Positions 2,524 to 46,182 of a stretch of 64,000 nt of DNA are shown here, in pieces. This DNA comes from an uncultured Blastocatellia bacterium. Lineage in GTDB: Bacteria; Acidobacteriota; Blastocatellia; Chloracidobacteriales; Chloracidobacteriaceae. The DNA is taken from positions 1-64,000 of the forward strand of contig CALGZC010000042.1 in NCBI GenBank assembly GCA_937934745.1, read 5' to 3'. The notes under the pieces were generated by a model. The model did not search any database and was not told the origin of the DNA. It saw only the letters and a list, made by a program, of their open reading frames with translations. The translations under genes and the position numbers were made by a program. Numbering within the stretch: the stretch's first letter is position 1; each line of letters begins with the position of its first letter.

Positions 2524-3652
2524 ACCTCCCGGCCCGGAACCGGAGAACGGTTTCTTCCGGCAGGCATGTTGCTTGCCCATGCCCTCCACGGCCGGTCTGC
2601 GCAAGCTCATACAGCGCCTCGGCCAGCGGGCGGCAGGACGCCACATAGATAAACTCTTTGTTCCGCACGTGGCTGACATGTCCCACCCGCTTGCCCTGCG
2701 GATTGTAAATCCCGATTTGCGCACCGACGTAGCGCTTGAAATCACGCTCGATGGTGAGGACTTCTCCGGCGCCGTCCCACAGCGTTGCGAGGGTCGCCTC
2801 CATTTCGCTGCGCGACAGGTAGCCCTCGTTACTCAGCGACACAACAATCACCGGTGCGCGAATCGTGTGGAGTAGCTCCCGCAGAACGGCTGCAAACCGA
2901 GGTCGCGAGTTAAACACCGACGACCGCAGGCGGACATCGGCCCGCTTGCACGCGACACCATAGACTTCCGGTTTGTCCCACCGGACAAGGGATTCCCAAA
3001 TGTGGTAGTTGCCAAGGTATGAGTGCTGATTATACGGCGGGTCTAGGTATGCGACATCAGCCTCAAGTTGACGGGCAGCGGTAAGGGCATCAAGGCACAT
3101 TGCCCGCCCTTTGCCCTCTCTGGCGCGGGGCAGCACTGCCGGCACACGCAGTTCAAGATCGTTGTAGGCGCGTGGGGCCCAGTTCTTGAGATAGGCCATT
3201 TGCAGGCCAGTTGTCGAATCTACGCGATCTGCCGCCTCCATGAGGGCAACCAGGACCACTGCTTCTAGCTCCGGTGGCAGGCCCTTCTTGGCAATGGCTT
3301 CCCGAATCGCATCAATGCGCTCGCCATTCTTGGGCTGAAAAAAGTGCGACTTGATGCAGAAGGTTTCCGTAAAGTAACCAGGCGCGCCCTTGAGCCGGTT
3401 GAACTCTGCAATCAACTTGCGGGCGTCGTCCAGCACATCTTCGGCGTCGGCCTGCACATAACACCGCGCCAGAGTGGCGGCAAACGTCAGGTAATCATTG
3501 GACAAGACGCGATACCCTTCGGCCTTGAGGGCGTGTCCGACACGCGCCGTACCCGAAAACAGGTCCATAACGGAGCGGACACCACCGATTCGCCGGATCA
3601 CCTCGCGGATAACCGGGATCAGCGTTCGTTTCGAGCCAAGGTACTTGATCAC
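2492..3652 (-). CDS. D12-class N6-adenine DNA methyltransferase (orphan)
   Basis: Predicted DNA adenine methyltransferase of the D12 (Dam/alpha) class, transferring methyl from S-adenosylmethionine to N6 of adenine in a target site I cannot predict. The 386-residue product has the AdoMet motifs in alpha order: KYLGSK at residues 3-8 (motif X), DLFSGTARVG at 30-39 (motif I) and the catalytic DPPYNQHSY at 204-212 (motif IV). The start is GTG at 3652, preceded by GAGGG at a suitable distance; it keeps KYLGSK near the N-terminus. It is the last gene of a minus-strand series behind glgA (gap 24 bases). No restriction endonuclease is visible in the window, so it may be an orphan methyltransferase with an epigenetic or repair role rather than half of a restriction system. 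The 3' end overlaps convergent gpsA. Confidence 0.88.
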   Translation of the reverse strand: MIKYLGSKRTLIPVIREVIRRIGGVRSVMDLFSGTARVGHALKAEGYRVLSNDYLTFAATLARCYVQADAEDVLDDARKLIAEFNRLKGAPGYFTETFCIKSHFFQPKNGERIDAIREAIAKKGLPPELEAVVLVALMEAADRVDSTTGLQMAYLKNWAPRAYNDLELRVPAVLPRAREGKGRAMCLDALTAARQLEADVAYLDPPYNQHSYLGNYHIWESLVRWDKPEVYGVACKRADVRLRSSVFNSRPRFAAVLRELLHTIRAPVIVVSLSNEGYLSRSEMEATLATLWDGAGEVLTIERDFKRYVGAQIGIYNPQGKRVGHVSHVRNKEFIYVASCRPLAEALYELAQTGRGGHGQATCLPEETVLRFRAGRFSIHGAGDGP

Positions 3653-7188: not shown

Positions 7189-9644
7189 TCAACCGGCACG
7201 GATGAAAGGTGATCGGTCACATCTGCATTCCAAATCGGCGACAGCTCATCTGCCAGCGTCTTGTCGGGCAAAGCTTTGTCGTCCACCAAGCGCGCGCCAG
7301 GCGACTCGACTAGCGCCAGCGGCAGCACCTGCTCCATCCGTTCTACGAAATGAATCTCCAACGCTTCGCGCACTTCGGTGGGGATGTCGGCCATGTCCTT
7401 TTCGTTGTCCTTCGGAATAAGGACCGTCCGAATCCCCAGCCGTAACGCCGCAAGCAGCTTTTCCTTGAGGCCGCCGATGGGCAAGACCTTACCACGCAGG
7501 GTAATCTCGCCGGTCATGGCCACGTCCTGCCGGACCGGAATTCCGGTCAATGCCGATACAAGCGCCGTGGCTATCGTGATCCCGGCCGAAGGGCCGTCTT
7601 TCGGAATAGCACCCTCCGGAACGTGAATGTGCACATCCTGCCGCCGGTAGAAATCCGGTGCAATCCCCAATTCACCGGTGCGTGACCGAACATAGGTCAT
7701 CGCTGCCCGTGCTGACTCTTGCATGATGTCGCCGAGCTTACCGGTGAGGATGACCTGCCCGCGCCCCGGAATGAGGGTGGTTTCGACAAAGAGCGTCTCG
7801 CCGCCGTTTTCCGTCCACGCCAGGCCGGTCGCCATCCCAACTTCACTGCGTTCCCTGAGCCGCGCCGGCTGATAGCGCGCCGGACCTAAGTACTCCGGCA
7901 ACGCCTCTGCAGTGACGGTCACCTGACAGGCACCACGCTCGGCTTCCGGCGTCAGCAGCAGCTTCCGGGCAACCTTGCGACAAATTGCCGCAAGGTCGCG
8001 TTCCATGTTCCGCATGCCTGCCTCACGTGTGTAGTCGTGAATGATCGAAGTCAATGCCTGCTCGGTGAAAGCCACCTGCGTTTCTGACAGGCCATGCTTG
8101 CTGCGTTGTTTAGGAATCAGGTGCCGGCGCGCAATTTCGAGCTTTTCCCGCTCGGTGTAACCGGACAGCCGGATAATCTCCAGTCGATCGCGCAGGGCCG
8201 GAGGGATCGTATGCAACACGTTTGCCGTTGCAATGAACATTACCTGCGACAGATCATACTCAACGTCGAGGTAATGGTCGCGAAAAGCGTTGTTTTGTTC
8301 CGGGTCGAGCACTTCCAAGAGTGCCGCCGCCGGATCACCGCGATAATCTGAGGTCAGTTTGTCCACCTCATCCAGCAGCATCAAGGGGTTGACAGTGCCG
8401 GCTTTTTTCATCATCTGGATAATCTGACCGGGCAGTGAACCGATATAAGTCCGTCGGTGTCCGCGAATTTCAGCATCGTCCCGCACACCACCCAGGCTGA
8501 GTCGGACAAACTTACGTCCGGTCGCCCGCGCAATTGACTTGCCAAGACTCGTTTTCCCGACGCCCGGCGGCCCGACAAAGCACAGAATCGAGCTTGGTGG
8601 CTGTTTGACGAGTTGGCGGACAGCGAGAAACTCCAGAATGCGCTCCTTGATCTTCTCCAGCCCGTAGTGGTCGGCATCAAGGATCTGTTGCGCCGCCTGC
8701 AAGTCGCCGTTTTCCTCCGAACGCTCATGCCACGGAACGGTAATCAGCCATTCAAGGTAGTTGCGCGACACAGCAGCTTCGGCCGACATCAACGGCATTT
8801 GTTCCAGCCGGCGCAACTCACTCATAGCCTTTTCGTGGGCGTCCGCCGGTAACCGTGCCGCCTCTACGCGCCGTTTCAGTTCTTCAAACTCTGACCGCTC
8901 GTCCTTCCGTCCCAGCTCCTTGTGAATGGCCTTGATCTTCTCACTGAGGTAAAACTCGCGGTGTGACCGCTCCATTTGTTTTTTGACACGTCCCTGAATG
9001 GCGCGGTCCATCTGGAGCTTTTCCAACTCAATGTCGAAGATGTCCACCAAACGGAGCAATCGGTCGGCCAGCGGGACGGTCTCCAGAACTTTTTGCTTTT
9101 CCTCGACGGAAATCTTCAGGTGGCTGGCGACGTTGTCGGCCAAACGGGCCGGCTCTTCAATTCGCAGGTCGGCATGCAGGTTTTCAGGGTTATCCGGGCT
9201 TTGTCGCACGTACTGGTCAATAAGTCCCGTCAGCTTTCCGACCAGCGCCGTAATGCGTGGGCTTTGCTCACGGTCTGTCGGCAGCCGCTGTACAAGCGCA
9301 ATCCAGCAGCCCTGATACTCTTCAAAGCGCAGCGCGCGTCCACGCTCCAGTCCCTCAAATTGAACCTTGATATTGCCATCCGCCAACTGGAGGTGATGGG
9401 TAATCCGCGCCAGCGTCCCGACGCGGTGAACCTGCTCCGGCGTCGGCTCCTCCAACGTCGGGTCGTGCTGCGTGACAAGAAAGATCAAGCGGTCGCGCTG
9501 GAGAGCGGTGTTGAGAGCGATTACAGAGGGTTTGCGCCCGATTTTGAAACGAATTGCCGTGTGGGGAAACACGACCACGTCCCGTACCGGGACTGTCGGG
9601 AAGCGCGCCACATTGTCAGGCAAGCTGTCGTGGAACTCGTCCAT
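7185..9644 (-). CDS. lon: ATP-dependent Lon protease
   Basis: Cytosolic AAA+ serine protease that degrades misfolded and regulatory proteins. The 819 residues are in the usual LonA order: an N-terminal LON substrate-binding domain ([19 protein letters not shown]), a coiled-coil middle, the AAA+ module with Walker [16 protein letters not shown] and Walker [11 protein letters not shown], and the C-terminal peptidase domain. The catalytic serine is in [12 protein letters not shown] and the catalytic lysine in [10 protein letters not shown]. The ATG at 9644 gives [20 protein letters not shown]. The gene lies 86 bases after clpX and overlaps engB by four bases, completing the conserved order tig-clpP-clpX-lon. 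Confidence 0.97.
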
Positions 9645-36248: not shown

Positions 36249-37856
36249 ATGGCTGTCAGCAAGACTGTATCTAACCTGCTGGTTGTGTCCCTCAGCGGAG
36301 CGGGTCAGGGCCAGTCGTTTATTTTCGATCAGGAAGCCGTCACCATCGGTGCCGGGGCGGAGTGTGACGTGGTGCTCGACCTTCCCGAAAAGAGTGCTGC
36401 GCCAGGCGCTGTTGCTGCCATTCGTCGCCGCGCCGAGCAACTGGAACTGTTCGTCCACGATGCCGACCACTACGCATTTCGCATCAATGATGAGCTTCGG
36501 ACACCCGCCGACGGCACGCCGATTGTCCTGACCAGCGGTGATGTTGTCGCCGTTGAACCGCGCAGCACCGTGGAGGGCACAGGCCCGACAAAGGTGGTCG
36601 TCCAGGTGGTCGCCAAACCCCAGACCACCGGCCTTGAGCCAACCAAAACGCCTTCACTCAAAGGCGTGAGCCAGTTTCCAGCGGTAGATGCCGGTGGACA
36701 AATCCACCCTCGCACGGCGACGCGCTTCCTCAAGGAACTCGTCTTCGCTCTCTATGCAGAGATGCCTGCTTGGGTGCGGGCAGTGGCGTTGCTGTTGACC
36801 GTCTCCGTGCCTGTTGCCGTGATGTCCGCAACGGTGATTGTGTTTGTTTTCCTGTGGAACTACGCCAAGTTAACTGAAGACCTGCGGATGAAAAACCAGA
36901 GTTCGGGCATCCAGATTGACGAACTCATGGAGGAAAACGAAAAACTCAAGAACCGAATCAGGGATTACGAAGAAGCCATTAATTTTGCTCCCAGGATTGC
37001 GGCCAGTTACCGGGGCGGAGTGTGCCTCATTATCGGTACTTACGGCTACCGCGACGCCCAGCAGCGCCCCCTGCGCTATCTCGACCACAGCTTTGACGAC
37101 AGCCGGGCAATCTCGGCCGACGGCAAGCTCAACGTGAGCTTTGAAGGCACAGGGAATGAATTCTTCGAGGAGTTCAGCGGCACAGGGTTTGTCGTCGCCG
37201 AAGGGTTGGTGCTGACCAATCGGCACATTGCCCAGCCCTGGTGGACCGACCCGACCGACAAGCTCATCAACCAGCTTGGTGGGAAGCCGTACATCAAGGA
37301 GATTCAGGCTTACTTCCCAGAGCACAAAACGCCGTTTACGCTCAAACCGATTGGCTTTTCTCAGGAAAGTGATGTTGCAGCCTGTACCTTTACGTTGGGC
37401 GACGCTAAAATTCCCATCCTCCCGATAGAAGGCGTTGGTGGCAACGAAGCCGATCCCCTCCCGGACATTACCGGGCAGGCCATTCTCCTGATGGGTTTTC
37501 CCAACGGCGTTGATGTGTTGGTGGCGCAGTTGACGGACGGACAACTGAAACGTGACCTTGAACGCCGCCTCAAAGTCTCGGAGAAGGCATTCCTGCTCGC
37601 CCAACGTGGCGAACTCGTCCCACTTGTCACGCAGGGCCACGTCACGCGGCTCGTAGCCGGACGCATTGTTCACGACGCCGCAACGCAGGAAGGTGGGTCA
37701 GGTAGCCCAATTTTCAACAGCGCCGGGAAAGTCATCGGCATCAACGCGCAAGTCACCGTGGATGAAGGCGGCGGACAAGTACCAGGGAACAATTTGGCGG
37801 TCCCGATTCGCGCTGCCCTCAAATTGCTTCGTGAAATAGGAAAACCGCTTGGCTGA
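36249..37856 (+). CDS. Membrane-bound trypsin-like serine protease with N-terminal FHA-like domain
   Basis: A 535-residue fusion not seen in the common HtrA plan. Residues 8-120 look like a forkhead-associated fold (FIFDQEAVTIGAGAECDVVL, then VLTSGDVVAVEP), but the arginine, serine and histidine that bind phosphothreonine are not recognisable, so the domain looks degenerate. One membrane segment spans about 176-203. A coiled coil (QIDELMEENEKLKNRIRDYE) follows, and a chymotrypsin-fold protease closes the protein: His326 in LTNRHIAQPW, Asp375 in SQESDVAACTF and Ser484 in EGGSGSPIFNSAGKVIGIN. There is no PDZ domain. Predicted topology: FHA-like part in the cytosol, protease in the periplasm. 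The gene heads a four-gene operon; gph overlaps it by 8 bases. Confidence 0.84.
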   Translation: MAVSKTVSNLLVVSLSGAGQGQSFIFDQEAVTIGAGAECDVVLDLPEKSAAPGAVAAIRRRAEQLELFVHDADHYAFRINDELRTPADGTPIVLTSGDVVAVEPRSTVEGTGPTKVVVQVVAKPQTTGLEPTKTPSLKGVSQFPAVDAGGQIHPRTATRFLKELVFALYAEMPAWVRAVALLLTVSVPVAVMSATVIVFVFLWNYAKLTEDLRMKNQSSGIQIDELMEENEKLKNRIRDYEEAINFAPRIAASYRGGVCLIIGTYGYRDAQQRPLRYLDHSFDDSRAISADGKLNVSFEGTGNEFFEEFSGTGFVVAEGLVLTNRHIAQPWWTDPTDKLINQLGGKPYIKEIQAYFPEHKTPFTLKPIGFSQESDVAACTFTLGDAKIPILPIEGVGGNEADPLPDITGQAILLMGFPNGVDVLVAQLTDGQLKRDLERRLKVSEKAFLLAQRGELVPLVTQGHVTRLVAGRIVHDAATQEGGSGSPIFNSAGKVIGINAQVTVDEGGGQVPGNNLAVPIRAALKLLREIGKPLG

Positions 37857-38538
37857 CGCACCACCGGTTTATGCCGTTCGCGCGCTTCTGTTTGACCTGG
37901 ATGGTACGCTTGTGGATTCCCGGCGCGACCTGGCGACAGCCCTCGATGGCATGTTGCAGGATTTAGGGCTGCCGGCGCTCGGTGTCGAAGCTGTCACACG
38001 TTTCGTCGGTGATGGGGCGCGCCGGCTGGTCGAACGGGGGCTGGCGGTTGCCTGCCCGAATGCTGTCTTAGAGGAAGCTTTCATTACGGAGGCACTGACA
38101 CGCTTCAAAGTCCATTACGCACAGTGTTTACTGGCGACAACCCAGCCATATCCAAACGTTGTCGCCACCCTGGAACATTTCGCCGCTTTGCCTAAAGCGG
38201 TTGTCACAAACAAGCCAGCCGCGTTTTCCGAAGCGATTTTGCAAGGTTTAGGGCTACGGACCTACTTCGTCGGTGTCATCGGTGGTGACTCGGTGGCGGA
38301 GCGAAAACCGCATCCGGCTCCGGTACTGGCCGGACTCGCTGCCTGTGGCGTCTCCGATCCGGCCGATGCCGTGATGATTGGCGATAGCCCGAATGACATT
38401 CGGGCCGGTCGCGCCGCCGGCACGCGCACCTGCGGCGTCACCTACGGCTTTCGCGTTGCCCATGAACTTGCCGAGGCAGACGTTATCATTGATGATCCCT
38501 TGCAGCTCCGGGAATCGTTCCGCGCGTGCCTTGCTTGA
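37849..38538 (+). CDS. gph: HAD-family phosphatase, phosphoglycolate-phosphatase-like
   Basis: A 229-residue HAD subfamily IA hydrolase. Motif I is LLFDLDGTLVDS with the nucleophile and acid aspartates, a helical cap follows (TRFVGDGARRLVERGL, typical of Gph), then motif II AVVTNKPAAF, motif III lysine in ERKPHPAPV and motif IV MIGDSPNDIRAGRAAG. Likely removal of phosphate from 2-phosphoglycolate, though related enzymes act on other small phosphates. It starts with TTG 37849 inside the end of the protease gene, an 8-base overlap that implies coupled translation. No other start is better placed. Confidence 0.88.
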   Translation: MADAPPVYAVRALLFDLDGTLVDSRRDLATALDGMLQDLGLPALGVEAVTRFVGDGARRLVERGLAVACPNAVLEEAFITEALTRFKVHYAQCLLATTQPYPNVVATLEHFAALPKAVVTNKPAAFSEAILQGLGLRTYFVGVIGGDSVAERKPHPAPVLAGLAACGVSDPADAVMIGDSPNDIRAGRAAGTRTCGVTYGFRVAHELAEADVIIDDPLQLRESFRACLA

Positions 38539-38550
38539 GGAACCTGCGTC

Positions 38551-39408
38551 ATGACTAATTATCGCCTGCTTGCCGTCGATTTGGACGGGACGCTGTTGGG
38601 GCCGGACAGCCAAATCACACCACGCACGCGCGCTGCTCTGGAGTGCGCCATCCGGGAGTATGACGTGGCGGTCGTCGTGGCGACCGGCCGGCGCTTTCAT
38701 TCGGCGCGTCCGATTGCCCAGAATGTCGGACTCACAACACCGCTGGTGACGCATAACGGGGCACTGGTCAAGGACATCGCCACGTCGGCTGTTCACTACT
38801 ACCAACCGTTAGAACTGCACGTGGCACGCGAACTGCTCGCCCTGGGTAAGGCCTATGGTGCAGACACCATTGTGCTGGACGACCCAGAGGGTGACGGCCG
38901 CATCGTGACCGACGGCGTATCAGAACGAAACGCCGCGCTGCGGTACTATCTCGAGCTGAACCGTCGGTATGTTCACGAGGTGGACGACCTACGCACATCG
39001 GTCACTGCCCCCGTCACGCAGGTGATGTTCTGCGGACCCTGTGTCCCGATGCAGGAACTGGCGCAGATTCTGGAACGCGACGTCACCGGTGCCCGCCTGC
39101 TGATGACGACTTACCCACACAACGACATGACCATTCTCGACCTGATGCACCCGGCCTGCTCAAAGGCAGCCGGCATCGCGTATGTCGCCGCGCAGCTCGG
39201 TGTTGAGCCGGAAGCCATTCTGGCTGTTGGAGACAACTACAACGACCTCGACATGCTGCGCTATGCCGGACGCGGTATCCTCATGGGCAACGCCGAACCT
39301 GAACTCAAGGCACTCGGCTTTGAACTCACAGCCCCCAACACAGAAGACGGCGTTGCCCAGGTCATCGAAACGTACATCTTTGGAAACCCCAGGCCCACCG
39401 CCAGCTAA
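38551..39408 (+). CDS. Cof-type HAD phosphatase (HAD-IIB)
   Basis: A 285-residue Cof/YbiV-like hydrolase acting probably on sugar phosphates or related small molecules. Motif I is LLAVDLDGTLLGPD, motif II VVATGRRFHSA, a large C2B cap follows, and motifs III/IV are CSKAAGIAYVA and AVGDNYNDLDMLRYAG. It begins 12 bases after gph with a GAGG ten bases before the ATG, and its stop codon shares one base with the next ATG. Its true substrate cannot be told from sequence. Confidence 0.9.
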   Translation: MTNYRLLAVDLDGTLLGPDSQITPRTRAALECAIREYDVAVVVATGRRFHSARPIAQNVGLTTPLVTHNGALVKDIATSAVHYYQPLELHVARELLALGKAYGADTIVLDDPEGDGRIVTDGVSERNAALRYYLELNRRYVHEVDDLRTSVTAPVTQVMFCGPCVPMQELAQILERDVTGARLLMTTYPHNDMTILDLMHPACSKAAGIAYVAAQLGVEPEAILAVGDNYNDLDMLRYAGRGILMGNAEPELKALGFELTAPNTEDGVAQVIETYIFGNPRPTAS

Positions 39409-39980
39409 TGGACACTGCCGGTTCACATCAGCCGTCCATCTGTATTCAGATTTCACCACGAACGCTGGTTGCGCTGGCCGGCGCATCCGGTTCCGGTAAA
39501 ACCACATTTGCGCGGCGATGGTTTGCACCGACCGAAGTACTCTCCTCTGATGCCTTCCGGGGACTGATTGCCGACGACGAGACTGACCAGGCGGCGACGG
39601 TTGATGCTTTTGACACCCTGTACTTTATTGCGGCACGGCGGCTGGCGCACGGTAAGCTGGTTGTGGTGGATGCCACACACACGAAGGCAAATGCGCGCGC
39701 ACGGCTGCGCGCATTTGCCACCGCGCAGCGTGTGAACATCTTGCTGATTCTTTTTGACTTGCCACTGGAGGACTGCCTGGCCGGCAACGCCGCCCGCCCA
39801 ACACGGCAAGTGCCGACGAGTATCGTCAAACAACAACACGCCGCCCTTCGGCAGGCCCGCCCGGGGTTGTTCACCGAGGGATTTCCCGCGGTAGTCGTCT
39901 TGGAAACCCCCAAAGCCGTTGCGTCGGTTGAAGTTCGGCGCCTGACAGCGCTCCCCGCGGCAGAAGCTGTGGTAAGGTGA
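39408..39980 (+). CDS. Stand-alone polynucleotide-kinase module of the bacterial Pnkp type
   Basis: The 190-residue product matches the kinase module of bacterial Pnkp, the end-healing part of the Pnkp/Hen1 RNA repair system. The P loop ALAGASGSGKTTFARRWF is at about residues 22-39. The strand and helix after it, EVLSSDAFRGLIADDETDQ at 43-61, hold the Asp and Arg (here D48 and R51) used by Pnkp to activate and bind the 5'-OH. VVDATHTKANARARL follows, and the lid is arginine-rich (NAARPTR). The phosphatase and ligase modules of Pnkp are absent, and no hen1 is seen. The ATG at 39408 overlaps the upstream stop by one base, so it is coupled to two HAD phosphatases. Kinase fold is secure; an RNA or DNA substrate is inference. 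Confidence 0.83.
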   Translation: MDTAGSHQPSICIQISPRTLVALAGASGSGKTTFARRWFAPTEVLSSDAFRGLIADDETDQAATVDAFDTLYFIAARRLAHGKLVVVDATHTKANARARLRAFATAQRVNILLILFDLPLEDCLAGNAARPTRQVPTSIVKQQHAALRQARPGLFTEGFPAVVVLETPKAVASVEVRRLTALPAAEAVVR

Positions 39981-43184: not shown

Positions 43185-43293
43185 TTGGACGTGTGTGGCA
43201 GCCTGCGGCTGCCCAGGGTCAAGACGGCTTGGGGTGGAGAACTGCTCCTCACACTGTTGCTTGCCTCATTCTCACGGCTCTGGTGGCTGTTCT

Positions 43294-46182
43294 ATGGAAC
43301 GGACCTCTCCCACCGCAGTTCCACCGTCCACCGCCCCTCGACAGGCGGCGTCGGAAGAGCCATTGCCGACGAACACGTCACTCGAGGAGATTGAACGGGA
43401 ACTCAACGAACGGCTCAGTCAACTCGGACTGCCGGTGCTGACGATGGCGCCGGCAGCTCGTGCCACCGCACCGCTGCGTGCCGACGCTGCCGGGGCCACG
43501 CAAATTCTCAACCTCAGCGAACTACGGCATGTCCTACGGCAGCAAGTTCGCATCGCCGAAATCAAAGAACAGGTAGCTGCCGTCATTCAGGACTGGCACC
43601 GTGAGCAGTTCCGCACCGGTGAAATCAAGATAGCCGAGTTTGAACTGCGGGCGGCCGGTCTGCTGCTACCCTATTGCCAGGAGTTTATTCCGAACTTTCC
43701 CGCGACCATGCGCCCCGTTGAGCTGGCGGTGGACCTTAACCTAGAAACCATCTTGCGCACAGCGCTGCCGCGTAGCCGCGAACGGGCGCTGACGCCGGAT
43801 GAGGTTGACCGGTGTGCAGTCCAAGTGCTTCAGGCGCTTTTGAAACACCCACTGATTCCACAAACGGCGGCCGATCAAGCGGAAGTTAGCTTACAAACAA
43901 CGGTTCTCAGGGACAAAAACGGTACGGCAGTGTATTCCCCTTCGGATGCTGCTTACCTGAGGCGTCTGATTGAAGAGCAGAAGCTGCTGGACCGCGAAGG
44001 CGAAATCGGGCTGCTGGCAATGCTTGTCAGCGCACGCAAATGGCAAAAGATCACCGATGATACCCTCTTTGCAGCAGCAGTCGAATACACGCTGGAAGCG
44101 CTCGCCAAGCGCCGGGGGATTCCAAGTATCGTGATCCGCAACCAAGGTGCCGATCACCCGGTTGCCTACATCCTCAGCGAATATATCCAACATCACCTGT
44201 CTGACTCACTCGAAGGCCAGATCACCTTCGTTGAGACCTTCCTCAATACAACGGTCCAGATGCTGAGAGAGGAAGGGGTAAGGTTTGTGGAGGCAGTCCG
44301 CCACCGGTACCTGTCGCTGTTGCGGCAGGTGTTTTTTGACCTCTTCCCCGAAGTGGTCCACCGCTTCCTGCACGCTTTTGAACGGGAGTTCTTGGGTTCC
44401 TCCCAGACCATCCGCAGTAAACTGTTTCTGCTCAAGCGGATCGGGGACTTCTGTGAACTGGCGTTCTACTGCCATGAAGCGATGCGCAACATTGCGACCC
44501 CAACTGGGGACATTTATGCCATTGAGCGCTTGACCGAAGGGGCGGCGCATTTTGCCCGGCGCAATAATCTGCCCGTCGCCGAGGGAATGGATGCTTTCAA
44601 CCAGCGCAACACCCTTGCTGAGTTACTCATCAACGCCATCAAGCACCGTTACTCTCTGCCGATGCCGGTCGGTGACACGGAAGCAACACGCCGCCAAGTT
44701 GAAAGTCTGGTGACGAGTGACCTGCTCAACTGCCTTAATCATCTGCGCCGCGTCTTTGACCACAACTATGCGCGCGCACGGGAAAATAGCTACGAGCACT
44801 ACCTGTACTGGCGCGGCCTGGTTCTGGAGTGGAGCCGCACCTACGTCCGTCTGCTTACCGGCCGAACACCAAACGACGTCGAGCAGTACCACTTGGATAA
44901 CATCGCCGCCTGGCACATTGAACAGGAACTGGCGTTTACCAAAATTCACTTCCCAGTCGTGTTGCAGGATGACCAAGCGCCCAGGCTCACGGCTGCGCCA
45001 ACCATGCGCCAACCGCATGAGGTTTTGAAGGAAGCGTTTCTCCGCTTCTGGCGCGCTTTCCACGTCAGTCTCCTCACCCGTGCGCAGGAGCGCGCCGAAC
45101 ATGAGGAACGGTTTTTTGCCCCAGAAAAGACCGACCGGACCCTTGTGCGGATGTCGGTGGATGATCTCGGGAAGCGCGCTTTTCTGGCGCGTAGTGATTT
45201 ACCCCTGGCGACCTACACCTTTGAGCGTCTTGCGCAGCACGTGACGCCGCAAACCCACGACGCCCTGGTGATCAGCCAATCCATTGAGGTCGTGCTGGAA
45301 CTGGCCAGTCAGGCCTATGTTTACGAGGAAGTCGCTGCTGCACGCACCTGCTTACGCCGCATTCAACGCCGGTTGGATGACCTCTTGGCGTTGAGTGAGG
45401 CTGAACGACTGGAATACCGAGCACGTATCCCGGCGATGCTCCACGATCTCGACCGCCGTGAACCAATCCGGCTGGCATCGTACATTGTTGCGCTCAGCGA
45501 GTTAGAGACGCTCGAACTGACCGACGAACGGGTTTTCGCGGAATGGCAAACCCTTGAAACGACCATCCAGCGTCTGACCGAGATCACCTGTGTGCTGCTG
45601 ATGATGCGTTCGCGGCCGGCACTGCGTGCGCTCGCACAGGCCTTTGGCACCTGGTATGCCTCCCTGCCGGAGACTACAGACACAGCGGAACGTCGTACGT
45701 ATGCCCAACGATGGCAGGCCATTCAAGACCTGGCCAAGATGACCTGGGTGGCTTGGTGGCTGCGCCGTTGCGCGCTCTGGCTGATTTGGAAAGTGCAATG
45801 TGTTGCCTCAGTGCCAGACTGGCATCCACCAGAAACCTATATCCTGGAGGACTGTTTGGGACTCGACACACCGGAAGTCCGGGTGCGTGATCTAGAGACG
45901 GTGCTGGCATCTTATCCACCGACCGCAGTTGCCCGTCTGGCACAGCAACTGCGCGCTATGCTCACGGAGCGGCTGACCTTGGATGACAGCGGCAATTACT
46001 ACACCAACGAAGAACGCGCTTTGCTGGAAAAGCGTCTGCAACGGATTGAACGGTTAGCCCGTCGCCAACCATGGCAAGCCGTCACGACCCGCTGGATGTA
46101 CCTGGTGCTGCGCTGGTGTTTGACACCACTGCGGCGGTGGACAGCACCCCACCCTGACACCAGTCATCCGCAGCAATCCTGA
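43294..46182 (+). CDS. Large protein of unknown function (962 residues)
   Basis: No domain is recognised. After a disordered Pro/Thr-rich N-terminus (MERTSPTAVPPS...) the chain is predominantly helical and rich in Arg, Glu and Leu, for example LSELRHVLRQQVRIAEIKEQ and RLIEEQKLLDREGEIGLLAM. Several hydrophobic tryptophan-rich stretches near the C-terminus (MTWVAWWLRRCALWLIWKV and RWMYLVLRWCLTPLRRW) could touch a membrane. The start is placed at ATG 43294, with GGTGG upstream; the frame opens at 43195, but that part is cysteine/serine-rich and improbable. Its TGA overlaps the yraN ATG, so the two are coupled. The gene begins 109 bases after the DUF4388 response regulator on the same strand, so a shared transcript is possible. 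Confidence 0.75.
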   Translation: MERTSPTAVPPSTAPRQAASEEPLPTNTSLEEIERELNERLSQLGLPVLTMAPAARATAPLRADAAGATQILNLSELRHVLRQQVRIAEIKEQVAAVIQDWHREQFRTGEIKIAEFELRAAGLLLPYCQEFIPNFPATMRPVELAVDLNLETILRTALPRSRERALTPDEVDRCAVQVLQALLKHPLIPQTAADQAEVSLQTTVLRDKNGTAVYSPSDAAYLRRLIEEQKLLDREGEIGLLAMLVSARKWQKITDDTLFAAAVEYTLEALAKRRGIPSIVIRNQGADHPVAYILSEYIQHHLSDSLEGQITFVETFLNTTVQMLREEGVRFVEAVRHRYLSLLRQVFFDLFPEVVHRFLHAFEREFLGSSQTIRSKLFLLKRIGDFCELAFYCHEAMRNIATPTGDIYAIERLTEGAAHFARRNNLPVAEGMDAFNQRNTLAELLINAIKHRYSLPMPVGDTEATRRQVESLVTSDLLNCLNHLRRVFDHNYARARENSYEHYLYWRGLVLEWSRTYVRLLTGRTPNDVEQYHLDNIAAWHIEQELAFTKIHFPVVLQDDQAPRLTAAPTMRQPHEVLKEAFLRFWRAFHVSLLTRAQERAEHEERFFAPEKTDRTLVRMSVDDLGKRAFLARSDLPLATYTFERLAQHVTPQTHDALVISQSIEVVLELASQAYVYEEVAAARTCLRRIQRRLDDLLALSEAERLEYRARIPAMLHDLDRREPIRLASYIVALSELETLELTDERVFAEWQTLETTIQRLTEITCVLLMMRSRPALRALAQAFGTWYASLPETTDTAERRTYAQRWQAIQDLAKMTWVAWWLRRCALWLIWKVQCVASVPDWHPPETYILEDCLGLDTPEVRVRDLETVLASYPPTAVARLAQQLRAMLTERLTLDDSGNYYTNEERALLEKRLQRIERLARRQPWQAVTTRWMYLVLRWCLTPLRRWTAPHPDTSHPQQS

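Follow-up and report, generated by a model that had tools for sequence, protein, structure and literature searches.

The window, a 64,000-nucleotide stretch of DNA from an uncultured Blastocatellia bacterium, carries a small kinase gene directly downstream of two HAD phosphatase genes. These genes, and the motifs of the kinase discussed below, lie at the following positions of the window.

37849–38538, + strand: phosphoglycolate-phosphatase-like HAD-IA protein (Gph), upstream neighbour (NCBIfam and PDB matches)
38551–39408, + strand: Cof-type HAD-IIB phosphatase, directly upstream of the kinase (NCBIfam and PDB matches)
39408–39980, + strand: solo Pnkp-type polynucleotide kinase, 190 aa (profile, PDB sequence match and predicted fold)
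39480–39506, + strand: P-loop GASGSGKTT, kinase residues 25–33; Lys31 corresponds to Lys21 and Thr32 to Ser22 of CthPnk, the Pnk of C. thermocellum
39543–39560, + strand: acceptor-site motif SSDAFR; Asp48 corresponds to CthPnk Asp38 and Arg51 to Arg41
39783–39806, + strand: lid motif G126-x3-R130-x2-R133; Gly126 lies at the position of CthPnk Arg116, and Arg130 and Arg133 correspond to Arg120 and Arg123

The ATG of the kinase gene shares one base with the stop codon of the Cof gene (TAATG), which itself starts 12 bases after the Gph-like gene. The exact start of the kinase is a little uncertain; conservation in the alignment begins at about residue 12, and residues 1–6 have pLDDT values below 50 in the structural model. 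To judge by its gene content and by a genome of two chromosomes, the genus is probably Chloracidobacterium. The gene occurs in six other genomes of the genus with 71–75% identity and is under purifying selection, with dN/dS values of 0.06–0.22 among 21 pairs (NG86, 165 codons; many dS values exceeded 1). This presence in six further genomes, together with the low dN/dS values, excludes a chance open reading frame.

Family and predicted structure of the kinase

We compared the kinase with NCBIfam, Pfam and PDB sequences. The best NCBIfam model was TIGR04075 (bacter_Pnkp), which matched with 172.8 bits (E = 1e-50) over positions 3–169 of its 851 positions only, and the second-best model reached 21.2 bits; accordingly, the protein was classified as a kinase module of the CthPnk type. 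Its score falls short of the value (>750 bits) taken to mark a full-length, three-module Pnkp, and no protein in any of the seven genus genomes passed the TIGR04075 cut-off. In Pfam, the kinase matched AAA_33 (91.1 bits). Kinase constructs of C. thermocellum Pnk were the top phmmer matches in the PDB (E = 5.5e-35 to 5.2e-34), followed by T4 Pnk (E = 1.8e-5), and identity with CthPnk was 40–42% across the whole module.

An AlphaFold model built from seven sequences (pLDDT 87.9, pTM 0.83) could be superposed on CthPnk with a Z score of 28.1 and an rmsd of 1.1 over 170–171 residues, gapless and with a constant offset of ten. The corresponding Z scores were 16.0 for T4 Pnk, about 16 for mammalian PNKP and PSTK, and 15.3 for Pnkp1; PFKFB and the remaining kinases of the list did not exceed 14.5. 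Judged by sequence and by the predicted fold, CthPnk is therefore the nearest solved structure. Since the solved CthPnk chains are 171-residue constructs comprising the kinase only, the Pnkp kinase module can fold alone.

These results bear out the initial annotation, which had read 39408–39980 as a stand-alone Pnkp kinase module: the product corresponds to the complete kinase module of bacterial Pnkp and stands free. No other P-loop family matched it better, whether compared by profile, by PDB sequence or by fold. Membership among zeta toxins, PSTK or small-molecule kinases was rejected, as PSTK scored 19.2 bits and the zeta family was absent from the profile matches listed. An N-terminal HD domain of the HD-Pnk type was likewise sought, and Pfam reported P-loop families only in the 190-residue kinase. 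One relative (G011) encodes a protein with HD and AAA_33 domains.

Active-site residues and the altered lid

The close likeness to Pnkp that the initial annotation saw in the P loop and the lid arginines, among others, was recovered in part: the P-loop lysine and the equivalents of Asp38, Arg41, Arg120 and Arg123 are kept, but the equivalent of Arg116, a lid arginine, is glycine. Lys31, Asp48, Arg51, Arg130 and Arg133 are present in all seven genus rows of the alignment. More widely, the Lys21, Asp38 and Arg41 equivalents occur in all 58 aligned rows, that of Arg120 in every aligned row reaching the position, and that of Arg123 in every genus row. The P-loop serine is replaced by threonine in the genus, and threonine also occupies this position in three fused homologues.

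The position of Arg116 (residue 126) is glycine in 7/7 genus genomes. It is arginine in all 15 Pnkp rows with a ligase part or the start of one, namely nine phylum proteins over the TIGR04075 cut-off (L058–L066), five named multi-domain homologues (L031, L033, L035, L036 and L037) and CthPnk. Among kinase-phosphatase proteins, surveyed without the second copies of G210 and G251, arginine is found in L032 and G027 and another residue in G174 and G324. The solo kinases divide almost evenly, with arginine in 12 and another residue in 13 of 25 rows (seven from the genus, 16 others of the same class, G226 and one plasmid protein; G050 was excluded because of a gap).

We take the residues equivalent to Lys21, Asp38, Arg41 and the lid arginines to have the same catalytic roles as in CthPnk, with Arg120 and Arg123 presumably holding the gamma phosphate and Arg116 presumably contacting the donor base. 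If these roles are right, catalysis should survive the loss of Arg116, which is not known to be essential, and donor preference may change. The altered lid could also go with an altered substrate.

Occurrence, gene neighbourhood and repair partners

The kinase was matched in 37 of 58 genomes, its own included (E of 0.001 or better), comprising 24 solo Pnkp-type kinases, one kinase-phosphatase protein (G027) and 12 more distant kinases. Solo kinases were called by score and reading frame (≥90 bits), and G050 was counted despite an in-frame TAG (L012), which may be an assembly error. Solo forms were found in several families of the class, and three solo relatives scored 165–170 bits with TIGR04075. 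When 297 genomes of the phylum were searched with this model, 59 contained a match at E = 1e-18 and nine were over the cut-off. Other partial forms were also seen: the G062 row, which may have been cut by assembly, spans model positions 475–851 only; five proteins (L071–L075, from G064, G235, G075, G215 and G070) are relatives of Pnkp with the phosphatase module and without the ligase part (297–382 bits); and G311 and G274 encode such relatives in addition to a full Pnkp.

Among plasmids, 190 records matched the kinase, 159 of them from Streptomyces. We inspected four Streptomyces copies, one of which, on pYINM00001, is a 165-residue solo kinase (158 bits with TIGR04075) annotated as an AAA family ATPase. 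In the other three (L099, L100 and L101; 317–326 aa), the Pnkp-type kinase is extended at its C terminus by about 150 residues, and L099 gave no NCBIfam match besides the kinase. Phage relatives amounted to 20 records, all below 60% identity, and a scan of 600 stretches gave at least six viral loci; no lead came from either. The solo form thus recurs across genomes and on a plasmid and is not peculiar to the present one. Among the literature matches listed, no title named a solo Pnkp-type kinase, which is weak evidence of absence.

In a tree of 57 rows, the seven genus copies grouped together (support 100/100), and the place of this group among fused and solo kinases was not settled; loss from a fused ancestor accordingly gets no support from the tree. 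The tree omits L009, L034, L038–L057, L076 and L078–L086, which, except for L034, duplicate loci that were already represented or are neighbourhood stretches surrounding such loci. The G050 kinase was too short to be included, L092 and L093 yielded no row at the threshold, and one and the same protein underlies L077 and L097. The kinase frame of L034 stops early compared with the similar L033, possibly also through an assembly error.

The initial annotation had likened the HAD neighbours to the phosphatase of T4 Pnkp, a parallel that the profile matches did not sustain. With TIGR01449, the model for phosphoglycolate phosphatase, the Gph-like protein scored 181.2 bits, narrowly above the cut-off of 180, and the Cof protein passed TIGR00099 (143.8 bits, cut-off 137). 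The PNK-3'Pase model was absent from all 22 NCBIfam rows of the Cof protein and from the 25 of 38 rows listed for the Gph-like protein. In Pfam, neither protein matched a PNK phosphatase family, and in the PDB both matched other HADs. On these matches, a T4-like Pnkp split into a kinase and HAD neighbours was set aside as unlikely, the likeness to T4 lying at the superfamily level.

The order Gph–Cof–kinase is found in 7/7 genus genomes; however, because most of the surrounding gene order is common to the genus, over compared stretches that reach 16 kb (8 kb in G002), we give this linkage little weight. The Cof and kinase genes overlap by 1–4 bases in the window, L038 and L039 (in L039 by the first ATG) and are separated by 16–67 bases in the other four genus genomes, by the ATGs taken. 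In six of the eight genomes of family f7 with a stretch available (L046, L048, L049, L050, L055 and L056), the solo kinase is preceded by a gene for a 7TM-HD membrane protein, which we take to be PgpH-like; the two are immediate neighbours in five of them, and a single gene separates them in G026. In four stretches of family f3, convergent CstA genes were observed in G021, G044 and G029, and PIN genes upstream of the kinase in G021 and G029, as follows.

L054:2346–2828 and 2843–3385, same strand: PIN gene, then solo kinase (G029); the PIN gene ends 14 bases before the kinase
L051:8557–8895 and 7926–8468, same strand: PIN gene, then solo kinase (G021); the PIN gene ends 88 bases before the kinase

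In these two genomes, a nuclease-kinase pair is possible. No functional neighbour common to these lineages was found: the genus has Cof beside the kinase, family f7 has 7TM-HD, and f3 has PIN or CstA. PADLOC gave just two matches (17–19 bits), and promoter and terminator scans gave 2 and 6 sites, compared with shuffle means of 1.9 and 7.5. Elsewhere in the window, positions 43195–46182 hold a 995-residue open reading frame with no Pfam match that clusters across six genus genomes.

We then searched the seven genus genomes, including the 85% complete G002, for the enzymes with which a Pnkp kinase might act. The Pnkp ligase part (TIGR04075), RtcB, RNA_ligase, the ATP-dependent DNA ligase fold and Ku were each found in 0/7, and Hen1 (TIGR04074) gave only weak matches of 19–28 bits over model positions 203–397 of 462 (cut-off 340). 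The remaining TIGR04075 matches, one per genome, scored 34–40 bits over positions 178–271, within the phosphatase part. The absence of phosphatase, ligase and Hen1 noted from the window itself thus extends to the seven genomes, where no Pnkp-grade match was obtained. The one examined, a 253-residue protein encoded in the window's own genome (G000:C40), belongs to the generic calcineurin-like phosphoesterases. Because it matches Metallophos and reaches just 40 bits with TIGR04075, we rejected it as evidence of a Pnkp phosphatase encoded apart from the kinase. TIGR02258, the family of 2'-5' RNA ligase/cyclic phosphodiesterase, was present in six of the seven genomes and in 11 of 14 control genomes.

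Three genomes of the same family (G007–G009) contain RtcB and RNA_ligase, and a solo kinase of this type is absent from them. Among the 58 genomes, RtcB was present in 11/24 with a solo kinase versus 29/34 others (Fisher test, P = 0.003). With the genus removed, the fractions were 11/17 and 29/34 (P = 0.15), kinship being ignored in this comparison. Because the contrast rests largely on the genus and ignores kinship, we claim no rule of exclusion between RtcB and solo kinases, and the 11 solo-kinase genomes with RtcB argue against a general one.

Proposed function and relation to known systems

We consider that the protein is probably a monofunctional kinase of the CthPnk type that depends on NTP, phosphorylates the 5'-OH of polynucleotides and acts as a 5' end-healer, its activity, substrate and downstream step being what we infer from the comparisons above. 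Such an enzyme would take the gamma phosphate from an NTP and place it on the 5'-OH end of RNA or DNA, with the aspartate of the SSD motif as general base and with the P-loop lysine, Mg2+ and the two lid arginines taking part. General enzymes would then act on the 5'-phosphate product: RNases that require a 5'-monophosphate in the case of RNA, and the DNA ligase of the cell in the case of nicked DNA. Since a dedicated RNA ligase of the families searched, Hen1 and a Pnkp phosphatase were not found in the genus, the kinase most likely works alone. Against this reading stand the loss of the Arg116 equivalent in the genus, the change of the P-loop serine to threonine, tempered by its occurrence in the fused homologues, and the lack of a conserved partner gene pointing to RNA or DNA.

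There is a small but appreciable chance that the kinase instead heals DNA ends in the repair of oxidative breaks, supplying 5'-phosphates to the NAD-dependent DNA ligase, with Gph clearing 2-phosphoglycolate from 3'-phosphoglycolate ends. Gph has been linked to phosphoglycolate derived from DNA repair, and the narrow pass of the Gph model, the Gph–Cof–kinase order throughout the genus and the crystallization of CthPnk with DNA (by its title, 4mde shows bacterial Pnk in a product complex that contains GDP and DNA) are consistent with such a role. However, the genus-wide synteny of the neighbourhood makes the linkage weak, none of the kinase neighbours in other lineages proved to be a Gph, as far as a scan of part of them shows, and Ku is absent from all seven genus genomes.

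The pattern of RtcB suggests a more speculative extension of the end-healing reading, which may be called 'heal and discard' and which we regard as rather unlikely: the solo kinase would turn 5'-OH ends that RtcB could seal into 5'-phosphates feeding 5'-phosphate-dependent decay, and RNA breaks would become irreversible.

It is improbable that the acceptor has changed and the kinase phosphorylates a small molecule or a protein. The loss of the lid arginine, which the genus shares with several further solo or two-domain copies, the small-molecule families of the adjoining HADs and a fold shared with gluconate and shikimate kinases and with zeta toxin (Foldseek rank 42) would fit such a change, but every aligned row retains the acceptor-site counterparts of Asp38 and Arg41, and the overlay on CthPnk far exceeds that on the small-molecule kinases listed (Z of 28 versus at most 14.5). 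Least credible, and highly improbable, is a drifting leftover of an RNA heal-and-seal system that lost its other modules: the phylum does hold three-domain, kinase-phosphatase, phosphatase-only and kinase-only forms, and the genus lacks the RtcB and RNA_ligase of G007–G009, but purifying selection, the preservation of the P-loop, the acceptor residues and two lid residues in 7/7 genomes and the recurrence of solo forms in several families of the class argue against it.

Pnkp is usually taken as a single heal-and-seal machine. A lone kinase module that is under selection, in a genus where no ligase was found, would mean that 5'-OH phosphorylation has a bacterial use outside RNA sealing. The small size of the protein and its predicted chemistry should make assays simple, and a characterized member would give a name to the other solo kinases, at least one of which carries no annotation beyond AAA family ATPase.

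Among known systems, CthPnk (4gp6, 4mde and related structures) resembles the kinase in the sequence of the whole module, predicted fold, P-loop, SSD/R motif and two of three lid arginines. The kinase described here differs from it in being encoded alone, without a phosphatase or ligase module, and in the replacement of Arg116 by Gly and Ser22 by Thr. The solo kinases of same-class genomes and of Streptomyces pYINM00001 likewise consist of the kinase module without a ligase, and their neighbours differ. In the Pnkp1–Rnl–Hen1 system, as described in PMC4411300, Pnkp1 is a homologue of T4Pnkp that unites kinase and phosphatase in a single polypeptide and has Rnl and Hen1 as its partners; its phosphatase is T4-like and of a different superfamily from that of Pnkp. 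The PNK-fold kinase is common to that system and ours, but partners of the Rnl or Hen1 type were not found in the genus. The Clp1 of Thermus scotoductus, according to PMC6777427, is an active bacterial polynucleotide kinase that prefers single-stranded RNA; it too stands outside a Pnkp polypeptide, but it belongs to the Clp1 family and is not Pnkp-like.
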